Source: Melioribacteraceae bacterium
Lineage (GTDB): Bacteria; Bacteroidota; Ignavibacteria; Ignavibacteriales; Melioribacteraceae
DNA length: 46,157 nucleotides
Direction: 5' to 3'
NCBI GenBank assembly: GCA_016342755.1
Contig: JAEINS010000032.1
Location: 1 to 46,157, forward strand
Below are positions 3,163 through 46,157 of the stretch, one piece after another. The translations under genes were made by a program, and so were the position numbers. Numbering within the stretch: the stretch's first letter is position 1; each line of letters opens with the position of its first letter. A model generated the notes under the pieces. The model was not told the DNA's origin. It was given only the letters and a program-made list of their open reading frames with translations, and made no database searches.

Positions 3163-4110
3163 ATGAAACTTATCAAACCCAAAAAACTGAACAAAGGTGA
3201 TTTAATTGGGGTCATTTCTCCCGCTTCTAGTCCTGCCGATCCAGATAAAATTGAAAAAGGTGTTAAGTATTTAGAAAGTTTAGGTTATTCTGTTGCCGTT
3301 GGCAAACATGTAGGTAAAGAAGAAGGATATTTAGCCGGATCTGATGAAGAACGTCTTGAAGATTTGCACGGAATGTTTGCAAATAAGGATGTAAAGGCCA
3401 TTATTAATGTAAGAGGCGGATATGGATCAGGAAGACTTTTAAATAAGATCGATTATAATCTGATTAAGAAAAACCCTAAAATATTTGTCGGCTATAGCGA
3501 TATTACCGTCCTACAGATGGCATTTTTAAAAAAATGCGGATTAGTAACTTTTGCCGGACCAATGGTTGCTGTTGATTTTTGGGAAGAGGAAGTAAGCGAA
3601 TTTACAGAAGAAAATTTCTGGAGATTAATTACATCAACCAGAAAGATTGGAAAACTTCATAATCCTCAGGAAGAAAAATTTCACATTCTTAACAAAGGTC
3701 GTGGAGAAGGACAATTAATTGGCGGAAATTTAGCCTTATTAGCCTCAATAATGGGAACAGAGTTTTTTCCAAACCTAAAAGACGCGGTCTTATTACTGGA
3801 AGATATTGGTGAACCTCCTTACAGAATTGACAGAATGTTTTATCAATTGAAGCTTCAAAAAGATTTTGATAAACTTCAGGCACTTGTTTTAGGAAGATTT
3901 GTTAAGTGTTATGATTCTGATGAACCGGAAAAGAAAACACAATCTTTAAATGAAGTAATAAGTGATTACTGGGCAGGTGAAAAACTTCCGGTTATTTATA
4001 ACGTAAAACATGGTCATATTAAAGATAATATAACAATTCCATTCGGATTACAGTGTAAAGTAAACTCATCCCGCGGATTTATAGAGATTATGGAAGGTGC
4101 TGTAATATAA
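3163..4110 (+). CDS. ldcA: LD-carboxypeptidase (S66 family)
   Basis: This is a muramoyl-tetrapeptide carboxypeptidase that removes the terminal D-alanine from murein tetrapeptides during cell-wall recycling. The S66 signatures are all visible: GVISPASSP near the N-terminus, the nucleophile Ser in FVGYSDIT, the Glu region LLLEDIGEPPYRIDR, and the His in NVKHGH near the C-terminus. I chose ATG 3163 over the in-frame TTG at 3142 because AGGAAG lies at the right distance before the ATG and the protein then begins MKLIKPKKLNKGDLIGVISP, as family members do. Length is about 315 aa, normal for the family. No signal peptide is seen, so it is cytoplasmic. Confidence 0.93.
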   Translation: MKLIKPKKLNKGDLIGVISPASSPADPDKIEKGVKYLESLGYSVAVGKHVGKEEGYLAGSDEERLEDLHGMFANKDVKAIINVRGGYGSGRLLNKIDYNLIKKNPKIFVGYSDITVLQMAFLKKCGLVTFAGPMVAVDFWEEEVSEFTEENFWRLITSTRKIGKLHNPQEEKFHILNKGRGEGQLIGGNLALLASIMGTEFFPNLKDAVLLLEDIGEPPYRIDRMFYQLKLQKDFDKLQALVLGRFVKCYDSDEPEKKTQSLNEVISDYWAGEKLPVIYNVKHGHIKDNITIPFGLQCKVNSSRGFIEIMEGAVI

Positions 4111-4119
4111 ATTTATTTA

Positions 4120-4156
4120 ACAAATAAGTCTCAGCTATATTCTGGGACTTATTTGT
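4120..4156 (+). terminator. Stem-loop after ldcA
   Basis: A 15-bp stem (ACAAATAAGTCTCAG against CTGGGACTTATTTGT, one G-U pair) closes a seven-base loop. Only a weak T run follows, so termination is likely but not certain. Confidence 0.55.
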
Positions 4157-4339
4157 CCTAATTAAACGATTAAGATTAACTCTCCTATTTTTCCCATAAA
4201 ACCCATATTCTATAAAGTAAATTCTCCATTCTAAGAAAATATTTTTCATCCGTGCATTTTTTCATAATTATAAAAGATTTTTTTTTGGTATGCTTATTGA
4301 ATAAATGCAATTTTAATTTTTGCGTAGCTGGAGTACTTT

Positions 4340-5731
4340 ATGGAATTTATAAATGAAGAATATCTTAATTCCTTAATTGATGATAAAAAACTATTTGATG
4401 TTTCTTATCAGAAAGAAATTATCGAAAAATCGAAACTGGCAAAAGGATTAACACTTGAAGAATCTGCAGCATTATTAAATATAAATGATCCGGAAGTTCT
4501 AAATGAAATGTTTCATACCGCAAAAGAAGTTAAAGAAAAAATTTACGGAAACAGATTAGTTTTATTTGCCCCTCTTTATTTAACCAATCTTTGTGTTAAT
4601 AATTGTCTTTATTGTGCTTTTAGAAGGGATAATAAAGAATTAACCAGAGTAACACTTTCGCTTGATGATATAAAAAGTGAGACTAAATATTTAGTTGAAC
4701 AAGGACATAAACGTCTGCTTCTTGTTGCGGGCGAGCATCCTAAAAAATCGGAATTAGGATTTATTGGCGAAGCTGTTAAAGCTATTTATAATGTAAATAT
4801 AAATGGCGGCAACATAAGAAGGATAAATATAAATACGGCTCCAATGTCTATTGATGATTTCAAAGTGTTAAAATCATTTGAAGTTGGAACGTATCAGTGT
4901 TTCCAGGAAACATATCATTACGATACTTATATGAAAATGCATCCATCCGGACCAAAGAAAGATTATTCATATCGTTTATATGCTATGGATCGTGCAATTC
5001 AGGCAGGAATTGATGATGTTGGTATTGGCGCGTTGTTTGGCTTAACAGATTATAAATTTGAAACACTTGCCCTTCTTAGTCATGCTATTTATTTAGATCA
5101 TACTTACGGAATTGGGCCGCATACAATATCTGTTCCTCGTCTGGAACCAGCAAACAACGCACCTGTTGCAGAAAAGCCGCCGTTTGCTGTAAGTGACGAT
5201 GATTTCAAGAAACTTGTTGCTATAATTAGATTAGCTGTTCCATACACGGGAATTATACTTTCTACAAGAGAAAGACCGGAGTTAAGAAGAGAAGTTTTTG
5301 AATTAGGAATTTCGCAGATAAGTGCCGGAAGCAGAACCTCGCCGGGAGCCTATAAAGAATCGCAGGATTCAATGGAAGAACATCAGATGGAACAGTTTCA
5401 GCTGGGGGATCACAGATCGTTAGATCAGGTTGTTAAAGACTGTACCGAACTGGGTTATCTTCCAAGCTTCTGTACAGCCTGCTACAGATCGGATAGAACC
5501 GGTGACCGTTTTATGGCATTAGCGAAAACCGGAAAAATCGGTAAACTTTGTGCCCCAAATGCTCTGGCAACTTTTAAAGAATATCTTAATGATTTTGCCT
5601 CTGAAGAAACAAAAAAAACCGCTTTAGCAGCAATTGAAAAATTTATTAAAAATGAAGATGAAGCGTTGCAAAACAAAATTAATAAAATGATTGAACGTGT
5701 TGATAAAGGTGAAAGAGACGTATTCTTTTAA
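4340..5731 (+). CDS. hydG: [FeFe]-hydrogenase maturase HydG (radical SAM tyrosine lyase)
   Basis: HydG cleaves tyrosine to p-cresol, CO and cyanide and delivers Fe(CO)2(CN) units for the H-cluster of [FeFe]-hydrogenases. The radical-SAM cluster motif CX3CX2C is at Cys85, Cys89 and Cys92 (CVNNCLYC). The second, HydG-specific cluster motif CX2CX22C is near residues 378-404 and has the exact spacing. Length (463 aa) is normal for HydG and longer than ThiH, which lacks the second motif in this form. hydE follows after six bases, so the two are co-transcribed. Neither a HydF gene nor a hydrogenase structural gene is in the window. Confidence 0.95.
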   Translation: MEFINEEYLNSLIDDKKLFDVSYQKEIIEKSKLAKGLTLEESAALLNINDPEVLNEMFHTAKEVKEKIYGNRLVLFAPLYLTNLCVNNCLYCAFRRDNKELTRVTLSLDDIKSETKYLVEQGHKRLLLVAGEHPKKSELGFIGEAVKAIYNVNINGGNIRRININTAPMSIDDFKVLKSFEVGTYQCFQETYHYDTYMKMHPSGPKKDYSYRLYAMDRAIQAGIDDVGIGALFGLTDYKFETLALLSHAIYLDHTYGIGPHTISVPRLEPANNAPVAEKPPFAVSDDDFKKLVAIIRLAVPYTGIILSTRERPELRREVFELGISQISAGSRTSPGAYKESQDSMEEHQMEQFQLGDHRSLDQVVKDCTELGYLPSFCTACYRSDRTGDRFMALAKTGKIGKLCAPNALATFKEYLNDFASEETKKTALAAIEKFIKNEDEALQNKINKMIERVDKGERDVFF

Positions 5732-40398: not shown

Positions 40399-41385
40399 AT
40401 GAATTTTAAAAAAATTAACCTGGCAATTATTGGTTCGGGCAGATGGGGCTTTAATCATGTCCGTACTGCAAAATCCCTTTTAGAAGCTAACCAGATAACA
40501 GTCTTCGACACAAACAAAGCAGCGGAAGAAAAAATTAGAGAGTTAAATAGCGAAATCAAATTCACAAGTGATATAAGCAATATTCTATCCGATGAATCGA
40601 TTAATGCTGTTATTATTGCTACTCCTGCAGAAACTCATTTTGAAATAGCGAAGAAATGTTTAGAATCCGGCAAGAACGTTTTAGTTGAAAAACCGATTAC
40701 ACTTCATGTTGATGAAGCTCAGAAGCTGTATGATTTAAGTGTTAATAATAATCTGAAGCTGATGGTTGGACATGTATTATTATATCATCCGGCTGTTTTA
40801 AAAATTAAAGAAGAAATGGAATCCGGGAAAATTGGAAAACTTCAATATATCTATTCCAACAGATTAAATCTTGGTGCCATTAGAAGTGAAGAAAATATTC
40901 TCTGGAGTTTTGCGCCGCACGATATTTCTATTATGCAGTTTTTTACTGATAGTTATCCTACTGATATTACGGCGAAGGGAGAAGACTTCATTCAAAATGG
41001 AATTGAAGATACTACTTTAACTTATCTGGAATATCCTACCGGGGTTCGCGGACATATATTTGTAAGCTGGCTTCATCCTTTTAAAGAACAGCGATTAGTT
41101 GTAATAGGTGAAAAAGGAATGTATGTATTTGAAGATTCGCTTAAAACTGATAAACTTAAATTCTATGATAAGGGATTTAAAAAAGTAGATGGTGAATTTC
41201 AAAAGTTTGATAATGATTTTGAATCAATAGAGTTTGAAGCTAAAATGCCGCTTGGAGAGGAGCATTTGCATTTCTATAATTCAATCTTAAATAATACAAC
41301 TCCCAGAACTGATGGGAAACATGCTCTCGAGGTTTTAAGAATACTGGATTCGGCTACTAAAGAGTTGAAGAAAGGGAAAGAATAA
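40399..41385 (+). CDS. wbpB: Gfo/Idh/MocA oxidoreductase (WbpB-like)
   Basis: This is a two-domain NAD-dependent dehydrogenase. The Rossmann start is NLAIIGSGRWGFNHVRT, followed by VIIATPAETHFEIAKKCLESGKNVLVEKPITL, whose EKP contributes the active-site Lys. By context it oxidises C3 of UDP-N-acetylglucosaminuronate, the step before WbpE transamination. The C-terminal domain has GHVLLYHPAV and APHDISIMQF. 328 aa is normal. It lies after a terminator and before 375 bases of repeats. Confidence 0.88.
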   Translation: MNFKKINLAIIGSGRWGFNHVRTAKSLLEANQITVFDTNKAAEEKIRELNSEIKFTSDISNILSDESINAVIIATPAETHFEIAKKCLESGKNVLVEKPITLHVDEAQKLYDLSVNNNLKLMVGHVLLYHPAVLKIKEEMESGKIGKLQYIYSNRLNLGAIRSEENILWSFAPHDISIMQFFTDSYPTDITAKGEDFIQNGIEDTTLTYLEYPTGVRGHIFVSWLHPFKEQRLVVIGEKGMYVFEDSLKTDKLKFYDKGFKKVDGEFQKFDNDFESIEFEAKMPLGEEHLHFYNSILNNTTPRTDGKHALEVLRILDSATKELKKGKE

Positions 41386-41427
41386 GATTAAGGTTGAGGC
41401 TGAGATTAAGATTGAGGTTAAGAAAAA
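41386..41427 (+). repeat. Hexamer array, family A (GRTTRA), plus orientation
   Basis: Six consecutive six-base units fit G-A/G-T(or C)-T-A/G-A in strict register, then a run of A. It begins a single base past the wbpB-like stop. The same word family flanks the four-helix-bundle gene at 42459. Confidence 0.85.
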
Positions 41428-41607: not shown

Positions 41608-41678
41608 AAAATATAAATAAGATAATCACTTCGAGCTAAGTTGGGAAGTGAAAAAAGAAAACAAATAATAACTGGTTT

Positions 41679-41742
41679 GAATGACTGAATGGATGTATGA
41701 CTGCAAGGGATCAAATTTTTACATCCATACAATTATTCATTC
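41679..41742. repeat. Tetramer element, family B, with inverted arms and no gene
   Basis: The left arm is seven tetramers in register with consensus near GNAT (41679-41706). The right arm is the same words on the opposite strand (41721-41742). About 14 bases separate the arms. It is an arms-only version of the structure seen around the four-helix-bundle genes. Confidence 0.75.
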
Positions 41743-41760: not shown

Positions 41761-42348
41761 ATGAGTGACAAAAAATATCATGTAAATGAATATGCAGTTG
41801 TAGATGATAATGTTGAAATTGGAGAGGGAACCAAGATCTGGCATTTTTCGCATGTTCAAAGCAAATCTAAGATTGGTAAAAAATGTGTACTTGGTCAGAA
41901 TGTAAATGTTGCAAACAATGTTATAATCGGCGACTTTGTAAAAATACAGAATAACGTTTCTGTTTATGAAGGTGTAACACTTGAAGATTATGTGTTTTGC
42001 GGACCATCAATGGTGTTCACAAATATATTAGATCCAAAATGTAAATATCCGCAAGTTGGGGCTGAATTTTATGTGAATACTCTTGTTAAAGAAGGAGCCT
42101 CATTAGGAGCTAATTCTACTATAGTTTGCGGCAATACAATCGGGAAACATTGTCTGGTTGGTGCCGGAGCCGTTGTTACAAAAGATGTACCGGATTATGC
42201 CTTAGTTGTTGGTAATCCCGCCAAAGTTATTGGATGGGTTAGTGAAGCTGGTAAAAGATTAAACTTTGATGAAAACGGATTTGCATTCTGCGAACAATCA
42301 AATAAAAAGTATAAATTTAAAGATGGGGAAGTGAGGGAAGTAGAATAA
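41761..42348 (+). CDS. wbpD: UDP-2-acetamido-3-amino-glucuronate N-acetyltransferase (WbpD-like)
   Basis: This left-handed beta-helix acetyltransferase has hexapeptide repeats throughout: VDDNVEIGEGTKIWHFSHV, IGKKCVLGQNVNVANNVIIG, and IGKHCLVGAGAVVTKDVPDYALVVGNPAKVIGW. The family catalytic region and the final acetyltransferase loop are intact. It acetylates the 3-amino group made by WbpE. 195 aa is normal. The C-terminus runs to a stop just before a hexamer repeat array. Confidence 0.92.
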   Translation: MSDKKYHVNEYAVVDDNVEIGEGTKIWHFSHVQSKSKIGKKCVLGQNVNVANNVIIGDFVKIQNNVSVYEGVTLEDYVFCGPSMVFTNILDPKCKYPQVGAEFYVNTLVKEGASLGANSTIVCGNTIGKHCLVGAGAVVTKDVPDYALVVGNPAKVIGWVSEAGKRLNFDENGFAFCEQSNKKYKFKDGEVREVE

Positions 42349-42458
42349 AGTTAAGTTTAAGGTTGAGATTAAGGTTGAGATTAAGATTGAGTATGAGATT
42401 AAGATTAAGAAAAAATAGTGAAAAAGTTGAGGTTGTGAAATAAGTTTTTGAGGTTGAG
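42349..42458 (+). repeat. Hexamer array, family A, left arm of four-helix-bundle element
   Basis: About ten six-base units in strict register fit GRTTRA (42355-42414), with scattered further units to 42458. It begins immediately after the wbpD stop, and the last units run into the TTG start region of the four-helix-bundle gene. Confidence 0.88.
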
Positions 42459-42815
42459 TTGTATAAAAGTTTTAGAGATATGGAAATTTGGCAGTTAGCA
42501 TTAGAAGTCGCTGAAAAAACATTTAATCTCACAGAACATTTACCAAAGAAAGAAGATTATGGATTAACTTCTCAAATAAGAAGATCAGCATTAAGTATTT
42601 CAGCCAACATAGCTGAAGCTTTTGGTCGGCATCACATTAATGATAAAATTAAATTTTACTATTATTCAAGAGGTTCAATTACTGAAACCCAGAGTCATCT
42701 TGAATATGGTAAAAGAGTTGGATATTTTGAAAAAGAAATTGTCGAAAATCTAGATCAAGATTTATCTTCATTAACACTTTCACTAAATAAATTAATTAAA
42801 TCCCTAAAATCTTAA
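42459..42815 (+). CDS. S23/IVP-type four-helix-bundle protein (copy 1)
   Basis: Member of the four-helix-bundle family named for proteins encoded in 23S rRNA intervening sequences; it is related to the Avd accessory proteins of diversity-generating retroelements. Signatures are FRDMEIWQLALEVAEKTF, LPKKEDYGLTSQIRRSALSI and SANIAEAFGR, with KFYYYSRGSITETQSHLEY forming the third helix. The TTG start at 42459 lies in the last unit of the left hexamer array and the stop codon lies in the first units of the inverted right array. ATG 42480 is a weaker alternative because it drops the conserved FRD. Function unknown; it probably forms a basic-grooved pentamer that binds nucleic acid. Confidence 0.85.
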   Translation: MYKSFRDMEIWQLALEVAEKTFNLTEHLPKKEDYGLTSQIRRSALSISANIAEAFGRHHINDKIKFYYYSRGSITETQSHLEYGKRVGYFEKEIVENLDQDLSSLTLSLNKLIKSLKS

Positions 42816-42898
42816 CCTCAGCCTTTTTTCGTCCTAGTCTTTTTCTCTACCTCAATCTTAATCTCAATCTTTTTTCCCTCAACCTCAGTTTCTCAACT
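42811..42898 (-). repeat. Hexamer array, family A, inverted right arm
   Basis: Read on the minus strand, the words GATTGA, GATTAA, GGTTGA and GGTTAA recur, broken by short A runs. They are the same family as the left arm, pointing the other way. The TAA stop of the four-helix-bundle gene lies within the array. Confidence 0.85.
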
Positions 42899-42953: not shown

Positions 42954-44144
42954 ATGAACGTACCATTATTAGATCTTAAAGCGCAATATGCTACTCTAAA
43001 AAATGAACTTGATGAAGCTCTTATTAAAACAGCAGAATCTCAGTATTTTATTTTAGGACCTGAAGTAGTAAAACTTGAAGAAAATATTTGTGAATACCTT
43101 GGAGCAAAAAGTGCTATTGGTGTTTCTTCCGGAACTGATGCATTGTTATTAGCTTTAATGGGCTTGGATGTTGGTCCCGGCGATGAAGTTATTTGCCCGA
43201 CTTACTCTTTCTTTGCAACGGCCGGTGTAGTTTCAAGACTAAACGCTGTTCCTGTATTTGTAGATTCTGATCCGGTAACTTTTAACATGGATCCAAAAGA
43301 AATTGAAGCAAAAATTACTGATAAAACAAAAGTAATTATTCCGGTTCATCTATACGGACAAAGTGCCGATATGGACCCGATTATGGAAATTGCAAAAAAG
43401 CATAATCTTAAAGTTGTTGAAGACGGCGCACAGGCAATTGGTGTTCAGTATAAAGATGGTAAATCAGTAGGTACTATTGGTGATATTGGCTGTTTCTCAT
43501 TTTTCCCAAGTAAAAACTTAGGCTGTTTTGGTGATGGCGGTATGGTGGTTACAATGGATAAAGAACTTGGTGAAAAACTTCGTGTTCTGCGTGTTCATGG
43601 CGGCAAACCAAAATATTATCATAGCATGATTGGCGGTAACTTTAGATTAGATGCTATACAGGCGGCTGTATTAAATGTAAAACTTCCTCATCTCGATAGC
43701 TGGTCGGCAAAAAGAAGAGAAAATGCAGAGCTTTACACAAAACTATTTGTTGAAGCCGGATTAGCTGAAGGTGTTGGTGAAACTGAATTAAGTGAAAACA
43801 ACAAAGTACTTCTTCCAAAAGCAATCTATAAACCAAGCAATCATTCATCCATGCAATCATCCGGTTCTTCTAACTATCATATCTATAATCAATTTATTAT
43901 ACGTGTAGAAAAACGGGATGAACTAAAGCAGTTTTTGTTGGATAATGGTGTTATGTGCGAAATATATTATCCGGTACCTTTCCATAAACAAGGATGTTTT
44001 ACAGAACTTCCTTCAAGTAAAGATGCTTATCCGGTTGCTGATAAAGCTGCGGATCATTCATTAGCACTTCCTATCTATTCGGAACTGACTGATGAACAAA
44101 TTAAATATGTAGTTGATACAATTGCTAAATTTATTAATTCATAA
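42954..44144 (+). CDS. wbpE: PLP-dependent UDP-sugar aminotransferase (WbpE-like, DegT/DnrJ family)
   Basis: Transfers an amino group from glutamate to the 3-keto UDP-GlcNAc-uronate. DegT/DnrJ blocks are VPLLDLKAQYATLKNEL, GVSSGTDALLLAL, VEDGAQAIG and the PLP Lys (about 186) in FFPSKNLGCFGDGG. Around residues 295-303 the segment PSNHSSMQSS is unlike the family. The DNA under it (43838-43861) is six tetramers of the family B repeat, a 24-base in-frame insert. The rest is intact (396 aa, slightly longer than usual), so it may still be active. It completes the A, B, D, E gene set. Confidence 0.92.
   Translation: MNVPLLDLKAQYATLKNELDEALIKTAESQYFILGPEVVKLEENICEYLGAKSAIGVSSGTDALLLALMGLDVGPGDEVICPTYSFFATAGVVSRLNAVPVFVDSDPVTFNMDPKEIEAKITDKTKVIIPVHLYGQSADMDPIMEIAKKHNLKVVEDGAQAIGVQYKDGKSVGTIGDIGCFSFFPSKNLGCFGDGGMVVTMDKELGEKLRVLRVHGGKPKYYHSMIGGNFRLDAIQAAVLNVKLPHLDSWSAKRRENAELYTKLFVEAGLAEGVGETELSENNKVLLPKAIYKPSNHSSMQSSGSSNYHIYNQFIIRVEKRDELKQFLLDNGVMCEIYYPVPFHKQGCFTELPSSKDAYPVADKAADHSLALPIYSELTDEQIKYVVDTIAKFINS
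43838..43861 (-). repeat. Tetramer repeat, family B, inside the wbpE-like gene
   Basis: Six tetramers (minus-strand words GATG, ATTG, CATG, GATG, AATG, ATTG) match the intergenic family B arrays. The 24-base length is a multiple of both four and three, so the reading frame survives. Confidence 0.75.
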
Positions 44145-44192
44145 AAGCTTATCTGCCTGACTGTAAAAGGTTGGGCAGTTAAATTTAAAAAT

Positions 44193-44266
44193 GTATGATT
44201 GAATGGATGAACGATATCAGGGTATTTTAGACAAATACTATCATTCAGTCATACATCCATTCAGTA
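44193..44266. repeat. Tetramer element, family B, with inverted arms and no gene
   Basis: The left arm is six tetramers in register (GTAT, GATT, GAAT, GGAT, GAAC, GATA; 44193-44216). The right arm (44239-44266) is seven tetramers of the same family on the other strand. The arms pair with a slip of two units around a 22-base spacer. Confidence 0.75.
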
Positions 44267-44277
44267 TTTTTCTAATT

Positions 44278-44291
44278 TTAACCTCAATCTC
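44278..44291 (-). repeat. Short hexamer run, family A, minus orientation
   Basis: TTAACC TCAATC TC are family A words on the minus strand, placed directly after the family B right arm. Confidence 0.55.
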
Positions 44292-44399
44292 TTATATATT
44301 TGTACCTAGTTTCGTTTTTATATTACTTGGTCTTTAAAAAATCTAATTTGTTTTCTCTTACTCAATTCTTTATTTTCCAATTATAATTATGGAATTACA

Positions 44400-44813
44400 A
44401 TGAATCATAAAACTATACGCTGGCAGCAAAGATATCAAAATTTTTCCAGATCCCTTAGGTTATTAGATGAGGCTGTGGAAATTGAAAAGCCTTCTGATGT
44501 AGAAAAGGGAGGAATCGTTCAATTTTTTGAAGTTACTTTCGAATTAGCTTGGAAAACACTTAAAGATTACTTGGAATCTGAAGGTTACTTAGTTAAGTCG
44601 CCTAGGGAAACAATTAAACAAGCATTCCAAAATGAAATTATTAGAGACGGTGAAAGCTTGATGCAGGCATTAGATGATAGGAATTTAACAACACATATCT
44701 ATGATAATGAAACTGCCAATAGAATTGTTAATAAAATACAGACTAAATATTTCCCCCTTCTACTTGAATTAGATAGTTCACTAAAGAATATGCAAAATGA
44801 AATCAATCAGTAA
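44400..44813 (+). CDS. HEPN toxin-like protein (HI0074/HepT type)
   Basis: This nucleotidyltransferase substrate-binding family protein is all-helical with 137 aa. The family blocks are IVQFFEVTFELAWKTLKDYLESEG, PRETIKQAF, and the HEPN active-site pattern RNLTTHIY, an exact R-X4-H-X-Y. In characterised HepT/MntA pairs this is the RNase site, and the Tyr is AMPylated by the antitoxin. The stop lies 17 bases past the start of the MNT gene. Toxicity here is inference. Confidence 0.88.
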   Translation: MNHKTIRWQQRYQNFSRSLRLLDEAVEIEKPSDVEKGGIVQFFEVTFELAWKTLKDYLESEGYLVKSPRETIKQAFQNEIIRDGESLMQALDDRNLTTHIYDNETANRIVNKIQTKYFPLLLELDSSLKNMQNEINQ

Positions 44814-45120
44814 TAATTATGGGATTTCTGAAAAAAGTTATTCCCTGATTTTGGATTCTCTCAAAAATTGTGTTGAAATAAACAAGGCTGTTTTATTTGG
44901 GTCAAGAGCAACGGGCAACGCTAAAGAAGGATCGGATATTGATATTGCGGTATTTGGAGAAAGCTTAACAAATAAAGTTCTTGATAAATTAAAAACTGAG
45001 TTAAATGAGAATGAACCCATCCCTTATTTTATTGATATTTTAATTTATGATGACATAGAGAATAAAGAATTAAAAAACCATATCAGGGAAGAGGGGAAAA
45101 TTATTTTTGAACGTAAATAG
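44797..45120 (+). CDS. MNT minimal nucleotidyltransferase antitoxin (MntA type)
   Basis: A 107-residue minimal nucleotidyltransferase. The active site GSRATGNAKEGSDIDIAVFG is an exact GS-X10-D-X-D, with a third acid expected in YFIDILIYDD. In MntA-HepT systems this enzyme transfers AMP to the HEPN toxin and silences it. It overlaps the HEPN gene by 17 bases and is read in another frame, a common toxin-antitoxin arrangement. The pair interrupts the sugar locus between repeat blocks. Confidence 0.9.
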   Translation: MKSISNNYGISEKSYSLILDSLKNCVEINKAVLFGSRATGNAKEGSDIDIAVFGESLTNKVLDKLKTELNENEPIPYFIDILIYDDIENKELKNHIREEGKIIFERK

Positions 45121-45513
45121 AGACTGTAATATTTTTCATTCTTGATCTTAAATCATTCAGTCATCCATCTATTCTTTCATTCTTCTCACTCAGTCTCAAC
45201 CTCAGTCGGATCTTTTTTTTATTTAACTAACTTTTTTTTCTAAAATCACCTATTTTTGTACTACTATATTTTTAGTTTCTTAAAAGGATATTTGTGGAGT
45301 TTAATTTTATACCTTCCAAGAAGTTTAAAGCAAGTAAAAATTAAAAAGGTAAAGGTAACTGCGTTTGGAGCATGATTTAAGTATAAGACTTTTTAATTTT
45401 TCTGTAAACACAATTAAATATTGTAAAACTTGAGAATAAAGTGATCAGTAATGAGTGATCAGTGATCAGTAATGGGTAAAGAGTGAGAAGTGATCAGTAA
45501 AGAGTGATCAGTA
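45121..45513. other. Gene-less region with repeats between the MNT gene and the second four-helix-bundle gene
   Basis: No supported gene. It contains inverted tetramer and hexamer words (45153-45207), T-rich DNA, a possible 27-codon frame at 45292-45375 with a ribosome site but no recognisable product, and the heptamer array (from 45441). Confidence 0.55.
45153..45207 (-). repeat. Mixed tetramer (B) and hexamer (A) run, minus orientation
   Basis: Tetramers at 45153-45184 (minus-strand words GAAT, GGAT, GACT, GAAA) are followed by three hexamers at 45190-45207 (GACTGA, GGTTGA, GACTGA). The pattern repeats that at 44241-44291 in the same orientation, so the HEPN/MNT pair is bracketed by direct repeats. 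Confidence 0.7.
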
Positions 45514-45524
45514 ATGAGTGAATT
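45441..45524 (+). repeat. Heptamer array, family C (GTRANNA), left arm
   Basis: Twelve consecutive seven-base units in perfect register fit GT-A/G-A-N-N-A with only small departures (GTGATCA five times, GTAATGA or GTAATGG three times, GTAAAGA twice). The ATG of the four-helix-bundle gene (45514) lies inside the eleventh unit. Confidence 0.92.
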
Positions 45525-45876
45525 AAAGAATCATAAGGATTTAACTGTTTGGCAGACGAGTATCGATTTTGTGACTGATATTTATAAAACTACAAAATCA
45601 TTTCCGAAAGAAGAACTTAACGGTTTAACTAATCAGATTAGAAGAGCATCTGTCTCAATTCCTTCTAATATTGCTGAAGGTGCTGCCAGAAGAAGTAAAA
45701 ATGAGTTTAGACAATTTTTATATATTTCATTGGGAAGTTTAGCTGAGGTGGAGACACAACTGATAATTAGTTTAAATTTAAAATATATCACAAGTGAAGA
45801 ATTTAATCATTTGAACACAGTTATAATCTCAATTAGAAAAATGCTATTAGGCTTAATTAAATCAATTAACTATTAA
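45514..45876 (+). CDS. S23/IVP-type four-helix-bundle protein (copy 2)
   Basis: A second member of the four-helix-bundle family (120 aa). It shows KDLTVWQTSIDFVTDIY, LNGLTNQIRRASVSIPSNIAEGAARR and EFRQFLYISLGSLAEVETQL in the usual order. It is diverged from copy 1, so the two are not a recent duplication. The ATG is part of a repeat unit of the left heptamer array and no ordinary ribosome site precedes it. The stop lies four bases before the inverted right array. Function unknown. Confidence 0.88.
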   Translation: MSELKNHKDLTVWQTSIDFVTDIYKTTKSFPKEELNGLTNQIRRASVSIPSNIAEGAARRSKNEFRQFLYISLGSLAEVETQLIISLNLKYITSEEFNHLNTVIISIRKMLLGLIKSINY

Positions 45877-45880
45877 CTGG

Positions 45881-45915
45881 TCACTCATTACTGATTACTC
45901 GTTACTCGTTACTAA
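45881..45915 (-). repeat. Heptamer array, family C, inverted right arm
   Basis: Five heptamers in register (TCACTCA, TTACTGA, TTACTCG twice, TTACTAA) are the complements of family C words. They point opposite to the left arm and start four bases after the stop codon. Confidence 0.88.
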
Positions 45916-45983
45916 TTTGATCATTATCTTTGTCCTTATGGGACTCACTTGGCGGAGCTTTAAATGAAAGGCAGCAGTTATTA

Positions 45984-46023
45984 GTGAAGAGTGAACCGTG
46001 AAGAGTGAACAAGTAATGAGTAG
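45984..46023 (+). repeat. Further heptamer array, family C, plus orientation
   Basis: GTGAAGA, GTGAACC, GTGAAGA, GTGAACA, one extra base, GTAATGA, GTAG. Same family and orientation as the left arm at 45441. It may be the left arm of a neighbouring element that extends to the right. Confidence 0.75.
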
Positions 46024-46119
46024 CTTAGATTGATTTTCAATCTGAGTGATCTGTTGTTAGAATAGTAATTACATTTGAAATAAATATGTAATTGTCGGGC
46101 ACCATGTAGAAATAGTAAT

Positions 46120-46157
46120 GTCATTCTGATCCGGCAACTGACGGAGAAGAATCTTGT
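46120..46157. repeat. Dispersed intergenic repeat, cut by window end
   Basis: GTCATTCTGAT ... GAAGAATCTTGT is the form of a GTCATTCTGA / AGAATCTTGT repeat widespread between genes in related bacteria. Confidence 0.5.

Follow-up and report, generated by a model that had tools for sequence, protein, structure and literature searches.

S23-family genes between inverted arrays of short words: a candidate heritable element of operon gaps

Introduction

The contig JAEINS010000032.1 (G000:C47) of a Melioribacteraceae bacterium, which is analyzed here at its full length of 46,157 nucleotides (nt) as the window, carries near its right end a gene of the S23 family enclosed by two oppositely oriented arrays of a seven-nucleotide word. 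The locus raises the question of whether gene and arrays form one genetic element and, if so, what keeps the two arrays complementary. S23/IVP proteins occur in many phyla according to record titles, also on plasmids, and the available parts of the cited literature name no function for them; a matched word array beside many S23 genes is a concrete candidate substrate. The explanation preferred here, to which a probability of about 0.5 is given, is a heritable element of operon gaps with a protein that probably forms a ring and reads its own word. Such an S23 word element would consist of one Avd-like four-helix-bundle gene between two inverted arrays of a 6–9 nt word, mostly 7 nt, and would usually sit between genes pointing one way.

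The gene and arrays at the contig end

The 5′ array (45441–45524, forward strand) consists of twelve in-register heptamers with the consensus GTRANNA. Units 1–4 and 6–11 (10/12) fit this consensus exactly, the deviating ones being unit 5 (GTAATGG) and unit 12 (GTGAATT), and none of 2000 shuffles scores as high. The gene (45514–45876, forward strand, 120 amino acids) starts with an ATG at 45514 that is part of unit 11, GTAATGA. The 3′ array (45877–45917, reverse strand) matches the stretch 45471–45511 and holds five complementary heptamers at 45878–45912, which read TGGTCAC, TCATTAC, TGATTAC, TCGTTAC and TCGTTAC in order. The first-pass annotation of this DNA, which had described twelve heptamers before the gene, five complementary ones after it and a start codon supplied by a repeat unit, is borne out in these points. 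It had also placed the inverted arm four bases after the stop codon; the arm does follow the stop, but the distance depends on how the units are cut, and the first full unit begins one base after it. The period-7 score is 27 for the upstream and 18 for the downstream flank and the inverted match between them is 23, against maxima of 18, 14 and 17, respectively, in 2000 dinucleotide shuffles; the direct match between the two 270-nt flanks is 18. Within the 4.73 Mb genome, three successive GTRATNA units are found at this site only.

The protein belongs to the S23 family, with 138.4 bits to TIGR02436 (cut-off 24) and 141.5 bits to PF05635 (cut-off 33.8). A Pfam search returned PF05635 plus a weak bAvd match and nothing else, so that the protein is no tyrosine (Y1, HUH) transposase, and in phage records it has no match at E 1e-5. 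A search with Rfam at gathering scores gave zero ribosomal RNA (rRNA) matches over 44047–46157, where the contig stops, and the upstream neighbors of the gene are protein genes; the site is thus not in an rRNA gene.

Occurrence of the layout among S23-family genes

The flanks of S23 genes were compared in an order-level set, drawn from the same genome and its order, in which 101 of 123 S23 matches were kept after removal of identical copies, short flanks and partial genes. With unpaired flanks as the null, the inverted match exceeded the 99th percentile in 47/101 genes and the direct match in 9/101. Periodicity lay above the 99th percentile of shuffles in 41 upstream and 59 downstream flanks, and on both sides of 32 genes. 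The leading lag among these periodic flanks was 7 in 31/41 upstream and 46/59 downstream cases, followed by 8, 9 and 6. A wide set of named loci from several phyla (75 of 80 used, four short frames and one contig edge being left out) gave inverted matches in 34/75 and direct matches in 11/75, with both sides periodic in 34. Judging by their titles, the passing loci belong to Bacteroidota, Proteobacteria, Acidobacteria, Poribacteria, Cloacimonadota, Sedimentisphaerales, Omnitrophica and Clostridia; the Nitrospirae and Candidate Phyla Radiation (CPR) loci of this set showed no inverted match above the null. In one complete genome (16 of 20 S23 matches used, without fragments, and with a score threshold of 16 borrowed from the order-level set), the inverted score reached at least 16 in 14/16 genes, 12 of them above 16, and the direct score in 0/16; by eye, nearly all the words in that genome differ. 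The architecture is therefore present in several phyla, with words differing per element.

One flank or both carry a clear array in 117/175 S23-family genes, which supports the annotated view of gene and arrays as one unit. The same annotation had held that this view would fall if S23 genes without arrays were the rule among relatives. This is not the case, because 117/175 have a period and 14/16 reach the score of 16 in the complete genome, although 58/175 have no clear array on either side. Control families from the same genomes behaved differently: the inverted flank match was found in 0/24 PIN genes (24 of 30 used) and 0/14 HI0074 genes (14 of 16 used), and one-sided periodic flanks exist in 2/48 and 2/28 of their flanks, respectively. 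A PIN gene at L107:3280–3666, which by eye seemed enclosed and was considered as another cargo, was rejected, its arm score being 11 against a 99th percentile of 12, in line with the 0/24 of its family. That the arrays are tandem repeats usual for the species, or a product of chance, is refuted by the single genomic site of the triple GTRATNA, by the controls and by the shuffles; the probability of this explanation is negligible.

GxxExxY genes (TIGR04256; 28 of 30 used) scored above 16 in 7/28 inverted and 11/28 direct comparisons, with words common to several loci. At L117, L119, L127, L128, L131 and others within L115–L144, they are often flanked by 8–9 nt words of the type ACGCAGAG / CACAGAGA, which reappear at other loci in either orientation, direct or inverted. 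These flanks represent a different phenomenon, possibly a sibling with a fixed word.

Of the seven S23 genes in the own genome (8 matches), one is broken, and short-word arrays with differing words were seen by eye near all seven. Five of these genes lie within inverted array pairs by score, two in the window, one in L101 and two in L109; the S23 gene of L003 has no inverted pair (score 11), and the broken gene was not recovered by the scan. Near-perfect octamers, TTTCCTTC, form a further tandem array of this genome at L102:18575–18657 (score 75). Among plasmid loci, for which no null was computed, the inverted score was at least 28 in 5/7, namely, L371, L372, L373 and L376 from cyanobacteria and L377 from Gemmatirosa, and 12 in two Trichormus records. 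In 9/73 elements the array extends to the ATG or over it, and a start codon within a unit was accordingly rejected as a general rule.

An inverse scan collected inverted array pairs whatever they enclosed, over 746 kb made up of the window, 300 kb of the same genome and 400 kb of genome G036. It returned 10 pairs, compared with a single one in a shuffled copy. Five of the 10 surround an S23 gene, two are gene-less hairpins of G036, and three, scoring 16–18, overlap coding sequence wholly or in part and are probably chance matches. The presence of S23 genes in the scanned DNA is by design, because S23 loci were a criterion in choosing several of the own-genome stretches; the stretches hold about eight S23 genes or remnants by position, five of which were recovered. 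The two G036 hairpins (L351:4531–4611 and L351:7136–7198) stand about 2.6 kb apart and have the heptamer TAACCTA in common, and their pattern TAACCNNTAACCNNTAACC occurs nowhere else in the G036 genome. A resident S23 gene sharing this word was sought in 16 loci, the best score being 14 for a 26-mer, a value without a null.

Inheritance and drift of the words

The words differ between elements; they are common to close relatives at different sites, not to distant ones. This was measured on pairs without a homologous neighbor within 1500 nt, sharing being a flank score above 16 on either side, with 20% of the pairs below 50% protein identity drawn. Flank sharing amounted to 1% below 50% identity, 3% at 50–60% (n = 1429), 19% at 60–70% (n = 154) and 60% at 70% or more (n = 10). 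The rise with protein identity across sites indicates that the arrays tend to be inherited with the gene while changing quickly, so that close relatives share words in spite of fast drift. The period itself tracks near relatives, with 21 changes on the tree against a mean of 30.2 in 300 shuffles, none of which was as low. As a trait of deep clades it was rejected, since no signal appeared with one row per 60% cluster.

Co-evolution of the two arms

A gap upstream of the nucleoid-associated NA37 gene (PF04245) in Flavobacterium allowed orthologous arms to be compared. Reading 70 of 80 matching genomes gave 31 with an S23 match (29 parsed), 25 without one but with a parsed gap and 14 without one and unparsed; among the 25, L331 and L332 were misparsed and L317 is a remnant, and the unparsed cases include one contig end and one run of N. 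Among 28 of the 29 parsed elements, the match between an element's own arms stayed at 18.8–19.9 in every bin of protein identity (8.1 when shuffled). Left arms compared between species scored 23.9 at 92% identity or more and 26.6 at 85–92%, then 20.5, 15.1 and finally 12.5 at 55–65%. For 96% of the 70 pairs in this last bin, the own-arm match was higher than the match between the two left arms, and an element's two arms are more alike than orthologous arms once the proteins differ by more than 25%. The pairs are not independent because the species share a tree. As the own-arm match is steady while orthologous arms diverge, the two arms of one element evolve together, and a heritable element with co-evolving arms is very likely.

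The number of words is also regular at this site. AG cores were chained at an exact spacing of 8; of 28 listed elements, four of another word type were set aside, which leaves 24 octamer elements. Exactly five words were counted in 20/24 left and 20/24 right arms, the rest having fewer and never more, and shuffled left flanks reach at most three. The CTAAGNNN word type is found among the Flavobacterium S23 elements. Over all elements, five words were counted in 37/118 left arrays, and four and five in 31/113 and 28/113 right arrays.

NA37 gaps without S23 measure 31 to 211 nt where properly parsed. Several of them hold, by eye, a gene-less hairpin of another degenerate word; in L299, L305, L307, L308, L311, L313, L314 and L318, heptamer-like words around CCAAGAT were seen by eye. 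A gene-less hairpin of S23-type octamers in L341 and a decayed S23 gene in L317 were also noticed by eye. The annotation had counted arrays at orthologous positions without any link to the gene as evidence against a unit. This is partly what was found, in that gene-less hairpins occur at sites holding an S23 element elsewhere; arrays thus do not need the S23 gene in cis.

RNA folding and the cause of arm matching

Complementary arms may simply reflect that the transcript must fold around the gene, either for cutting by RNase III or for control of S23 translation, so that no reading of words would be needed; a stem cut as in an intervening sequence (IVS) would also leave the operon undisturbed by the insertion. 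The predicted fold of 45430–45920 agrees with this, with −114.2 kcal/mol against −94.1 ± 5.1 in 100 shuffles (z −3.95) and with the arms paired. By hand count, the start codon straddles the inner end of the predicted stem, its A being paired there and its U and G unpaired in an internal loop. Purines dominate the 5′ arm in 41/47 elements, and the Coxiella IVS is, in the accessible portion of PMC4990558, excised by RNase III. Gene orientation points the same way: both neighbors are codirectional with the S23 gene in 88/95 cases with both called, against 167/252 own-genome genes (Fisher p 1.3e-7, two different gene callers being compared). With the S23 gene caller, codirectional neighbors were found for 16/23 PIN, 6/12 HI0074 and 23/27 GxxExxY genes. 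The 88/95 count equally fits the placement in operon gaps that the preferred reading assumes.

The mismatches of the arms tell against folding as the sole cause. More G-U than A-C mismatches, the signature of RNA wobble pairing, were sought and found absent, although the numbers are small: 82 G-U versus 69 A-C in the relatives and 50 versus 78 in the wide set (p 0.017), with an A-C type excess of 53 versus 20 in Flavobacterium, where counts are not independent. The lack of a G-U excess points to a common cause acting on both arms, be it a protein reading both or copying between arms, rather than to pairing alone. A stem as such would form without a fixed word period, and gene-less hairpins need another cause, as does a gene-less forward array of a similar word, absent from the first-pass annotation, that lies unpaired outside the hairpin at 45976–46022 (forward strand, period 7, score 14). 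An RNA hairpin as the full explanation is accordingly considered unlikely, albeit the strongest competitor.

Copying between arms might also proceed without any function. Slippage and template switching at quasi-palindromes would then match the arms as a by-product of DNA metabolism, with S23 as a passenger or trapped in the loop. This would account for matching arms without a wobble signature, for arrays very unequal in length and for gene-less hairpins with degenerate words. It does not explain why one family occupies the loop (5/10 pairs of the inverse scan, partly owing to the chosen stretches, against 0/38 for PIN plus HI0074), nor the steady five-word count in Flavobacterium, and we regard it as improbable.

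Occupancy of operon gaps and mobility

The order marR–fadB–fadA was read in three flavobacterial records and in one titled Limnohabitans, a metagenome bin. An S23 element lies before fadB in L386 and between fadB and fadA in L387 and L389. In L388, it lies after fadB behind one or two other frames, and by eye the arrays flanking S23 point the same way. L387 has a first gap of 95 nt that holds no arrays, L389 one of 6 nt, and in L386 and L388 the other gap holds, by eye, a gene-less hairpin of the same word. Neighboring gaps of one operon are thus differently occupied. At L388:3978–4334 and about 4490–4939, one or two unrelated frames stand between S23-word arrays, as if another gene had entered; the frame at 3978–4334 has zero Pfam matches.

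On a quick tree, read without examination of supports and with seven wide-set loci hand-labelled as site-mates, the S23 genes of the NA37 gap fall into three groups of 30, 3 and 1 rows, a grouping that supports repeated arrival at this site and suggests three or more such events. The evidence for mobility consists of word sharing at different sites and of differing gap occupancy at marR–fadB–fadA and NA37, with no strain-level empty site seen. These sequence comparisons make it likely that the element is mobile, presumably moving as a unit at a low rate.

Repeated arrival could also mean that the element inserts into hairpins already present between cistrons, or into 23S rRNA helices, and takes over their arms. 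Arrival at a gap where other species hold gene-less hairpins is consistent with this, as is the position of the Coxiella IVS in helix 45, reported in the part of PMC4990558 at hand. Most gene-less Flavobacterium hairpins, however, carry by eye another word than the S23 elements at the same site, words follow the protein between different sites, and the gap of L389 is 6 nt without a hairpin where another record has the element. Takeover of earlier hairpins is therefore given little credence.

Arrays often span from the preceding stop codon to just before the next start codon in the examples inspected. Of 13 loci without a called gene on one or both sides, 10 were searched for nearby rRNA, and none was found. 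A Nostoc S23 copy is antisense to both of its neighbors, nrdB and nrdA. In cyanobacterial plasmids, S23 genes (L371, L373, L376) occupy the nrdB–nrdA and cas6–cas4 gaps.

A proposed mechanism and its weight

In the preferred reading, namely a heritable element of operon gaps with a word-reading ring protein, a pentameric ring encoded by the gene would read its own word at either end of the element. Each subunit would bind about one word, a number suggested by the five words per arm in the best-sampled set. If the taste of the protein drifted, both arrays would follow, and lineages would end with their own words. The bound ends, or the RNA hairpin formed of them, might serve the spread, protection or control of the element. 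That the S23 protein reads the words is put forward tentatively. A fuller version, a class of mobile element distributed over many bacterial phyla and lacking fixed end sequences, is more speculative still: end words proper to a lineage, one per pentamer subunit, might co-evolve with the protein as two keys with one lock, IVSs might be members that landed in rRNA, and the words might be the first substrate of S23 to be named.

Several observations weigh against this reading. In addition to the 58/175 S23 genes without a clear array, some elements have arrays in the same orientation, as in the 9/101 direct matches and in L373, where the direct score is 69 and the inverted score 28. Gene-less short-word hairpins exist; the period carries no tree signal at one row per 60% cluster; the conserved core within the word is modest, with 28/168 arrays beyond the 95% level where 8 are expected. 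The net charge of the S23 protein is only about +3. Neither transposition nor a target duplication nor a near-identical recent copy was seen. The five-word octamer elements most likely descend from one insertion, and counts over all elements peak at 4–6 with a tail to 40, the window element having twelve plus five. Codirectional neighbors reach only 52/68 in the wide set, a value that the RNA-folding explanation can also claim, and 23/27 GxxExxY genes have them too. Finally, the Coxiella authors think, in the portion of PMC4990558 available, that S23p is not made in vivo and that its gene is decaying, the RNA being the relevant part.

If the reading is true, the element would be a mobile one that keeps its architecture and not its sequence, and it would for this reason escape repeat searches based on identity. 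How IVSs and certain private heptamer repeats of bacteria arose could also be explained in this way.

Further elements and neighboring genes in the window

The window contains a second S23 element. Its 5′ array (42346–42410, forward strand) has a period of 6/12 with the words GATTAA / GGTTGA and an inverted score of 24. It is followed by an S23-family gene of 118 amino acids identified by profile match (42459–42815, forward strand) and by a 3′ array of period 6 (42831–42870, reverse strand), which the array scan and the inverted score show to be complementary to the 5′ array. The word of this element recurs without a gene one gap upstream, beyond the neighboring gene 41761–42348, at 41370–41422 (forward strand; score 21 against the arm 42842–42866), which resembles the habit seen at marR–fadB–fadA. 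Small gene-less hairpins with words like TGAATGGATG are located at 41678–41739 and 44191–44256, with arm scores of 14 and 13 (99th percentile 12).

Upstream of the S23 gene at the contig end, 44400–45120 encodes a pair of an HI0074-type subunit and an MntA-like nucleotidyltransferase, the MntA match being below its cut-off. The nucleotidyltransferase has weak matches to PADLOC candidate families. This pair, which likewise seemed enclosed by eye, was rejected as another cargo, with an arm score of 12 against a 99th percentile of 12 and 0/14 in its family.

Comparison with known systems

In REP/RAYT systems, in which repetitive extragenic palindromic (REP) sequences accompany a transposase gene, the repeats flank the gene, and gene and repeat are matched one-to-one. 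The S23 word element resembles these REPtrons, as far as the sections available of PMC2817692 and PMC3116915 describe them, in that intergenic palindromic repeats are tied to one gene. RAYT proteins are tyrosine transposases and REPs exist in many scattered copies, whereas a four-helix bundle with its own word per copy is found here; many dispersed copies of one palindrome do not occur, the triple GTRATNA being confined to the site at the contig end. A distant sequence kinship links the protein to Avd of diversity-generating retroelements (PF22296 bAvd, 24 bits, cut-off 40), and a structural resemblance is described in the available part of PMC10053308; the protein scores 22.8 bits against NF033474, far below the cut-off of 80 for Avd proper. 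The idea of one repeat per ring subunit has its parallel in TRAP, for which the accessible text of PMC4027176 gives an 11-subunit ring and 11 (G/U)AG repeats; no sequence kinship to TRAP is claimed, and binding by S23 is here only proposed. The closest solved chain is 2gsc (E 4e-24), from Xanthomonas, and S23p of Xanthomonas campestris is a homopentameric toroid according to the passages of PMC4990558 that cite Lin 2006. No description of intergenic S23 arrays was found among the matches listed from the open literature, where subscription journals mostly fall outside.

Among known systems, the 23S rRNA IVS comes closest. In Coxiella burnetii, the part of PMC4990558 at hand describes terminal inverted repeats that form a 28-bp stem, an excision by RNase III, and up to three GACAGAT followed by GACAGAA directly before the S23p start, with a repeat number that varies by strain; the IVS, in helix 45, is termed a selfish element. 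According to the available text of PMC11270868, 16S and 23S insertions in CPR bacteria can likewise carry 23S_rRNA_IVP genes. Both the Coxiella IVS and the window element carry an S23-family gene in the loop of complementary ends, predicted in the window to fold into a stem around it, and tandem heptamers before its start. They differ in that the IVS lies inside rRNA genes and is cut by RNase III, and the window site is not in an rRNA gene. Words proper to each element, co-evolving arms and the wide spread over operon gaps are absent from the IVS description in the portion of PMC4990558 seen here. The link to S23 genes in rRNA that the first-pass annotation had drawn is strengthened by the published heptamers before the Coxiella S23 start, and its interpretation holds in part: the unit is supported and the IVS link is firmer, but arrays also exist without the gene. 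The 23S rRNA IVSs are somewhat more probably than otherwise the same kind of element at another site. The finding is confirmed and is wider than a single locus, either as a variant of the IVS kind or, should word reading by the proteins be borne out, as a separate class. The shared layout suggests that these small, probably mobile elements form a family that is little known, and the rRNA insertions may be one special case of it.
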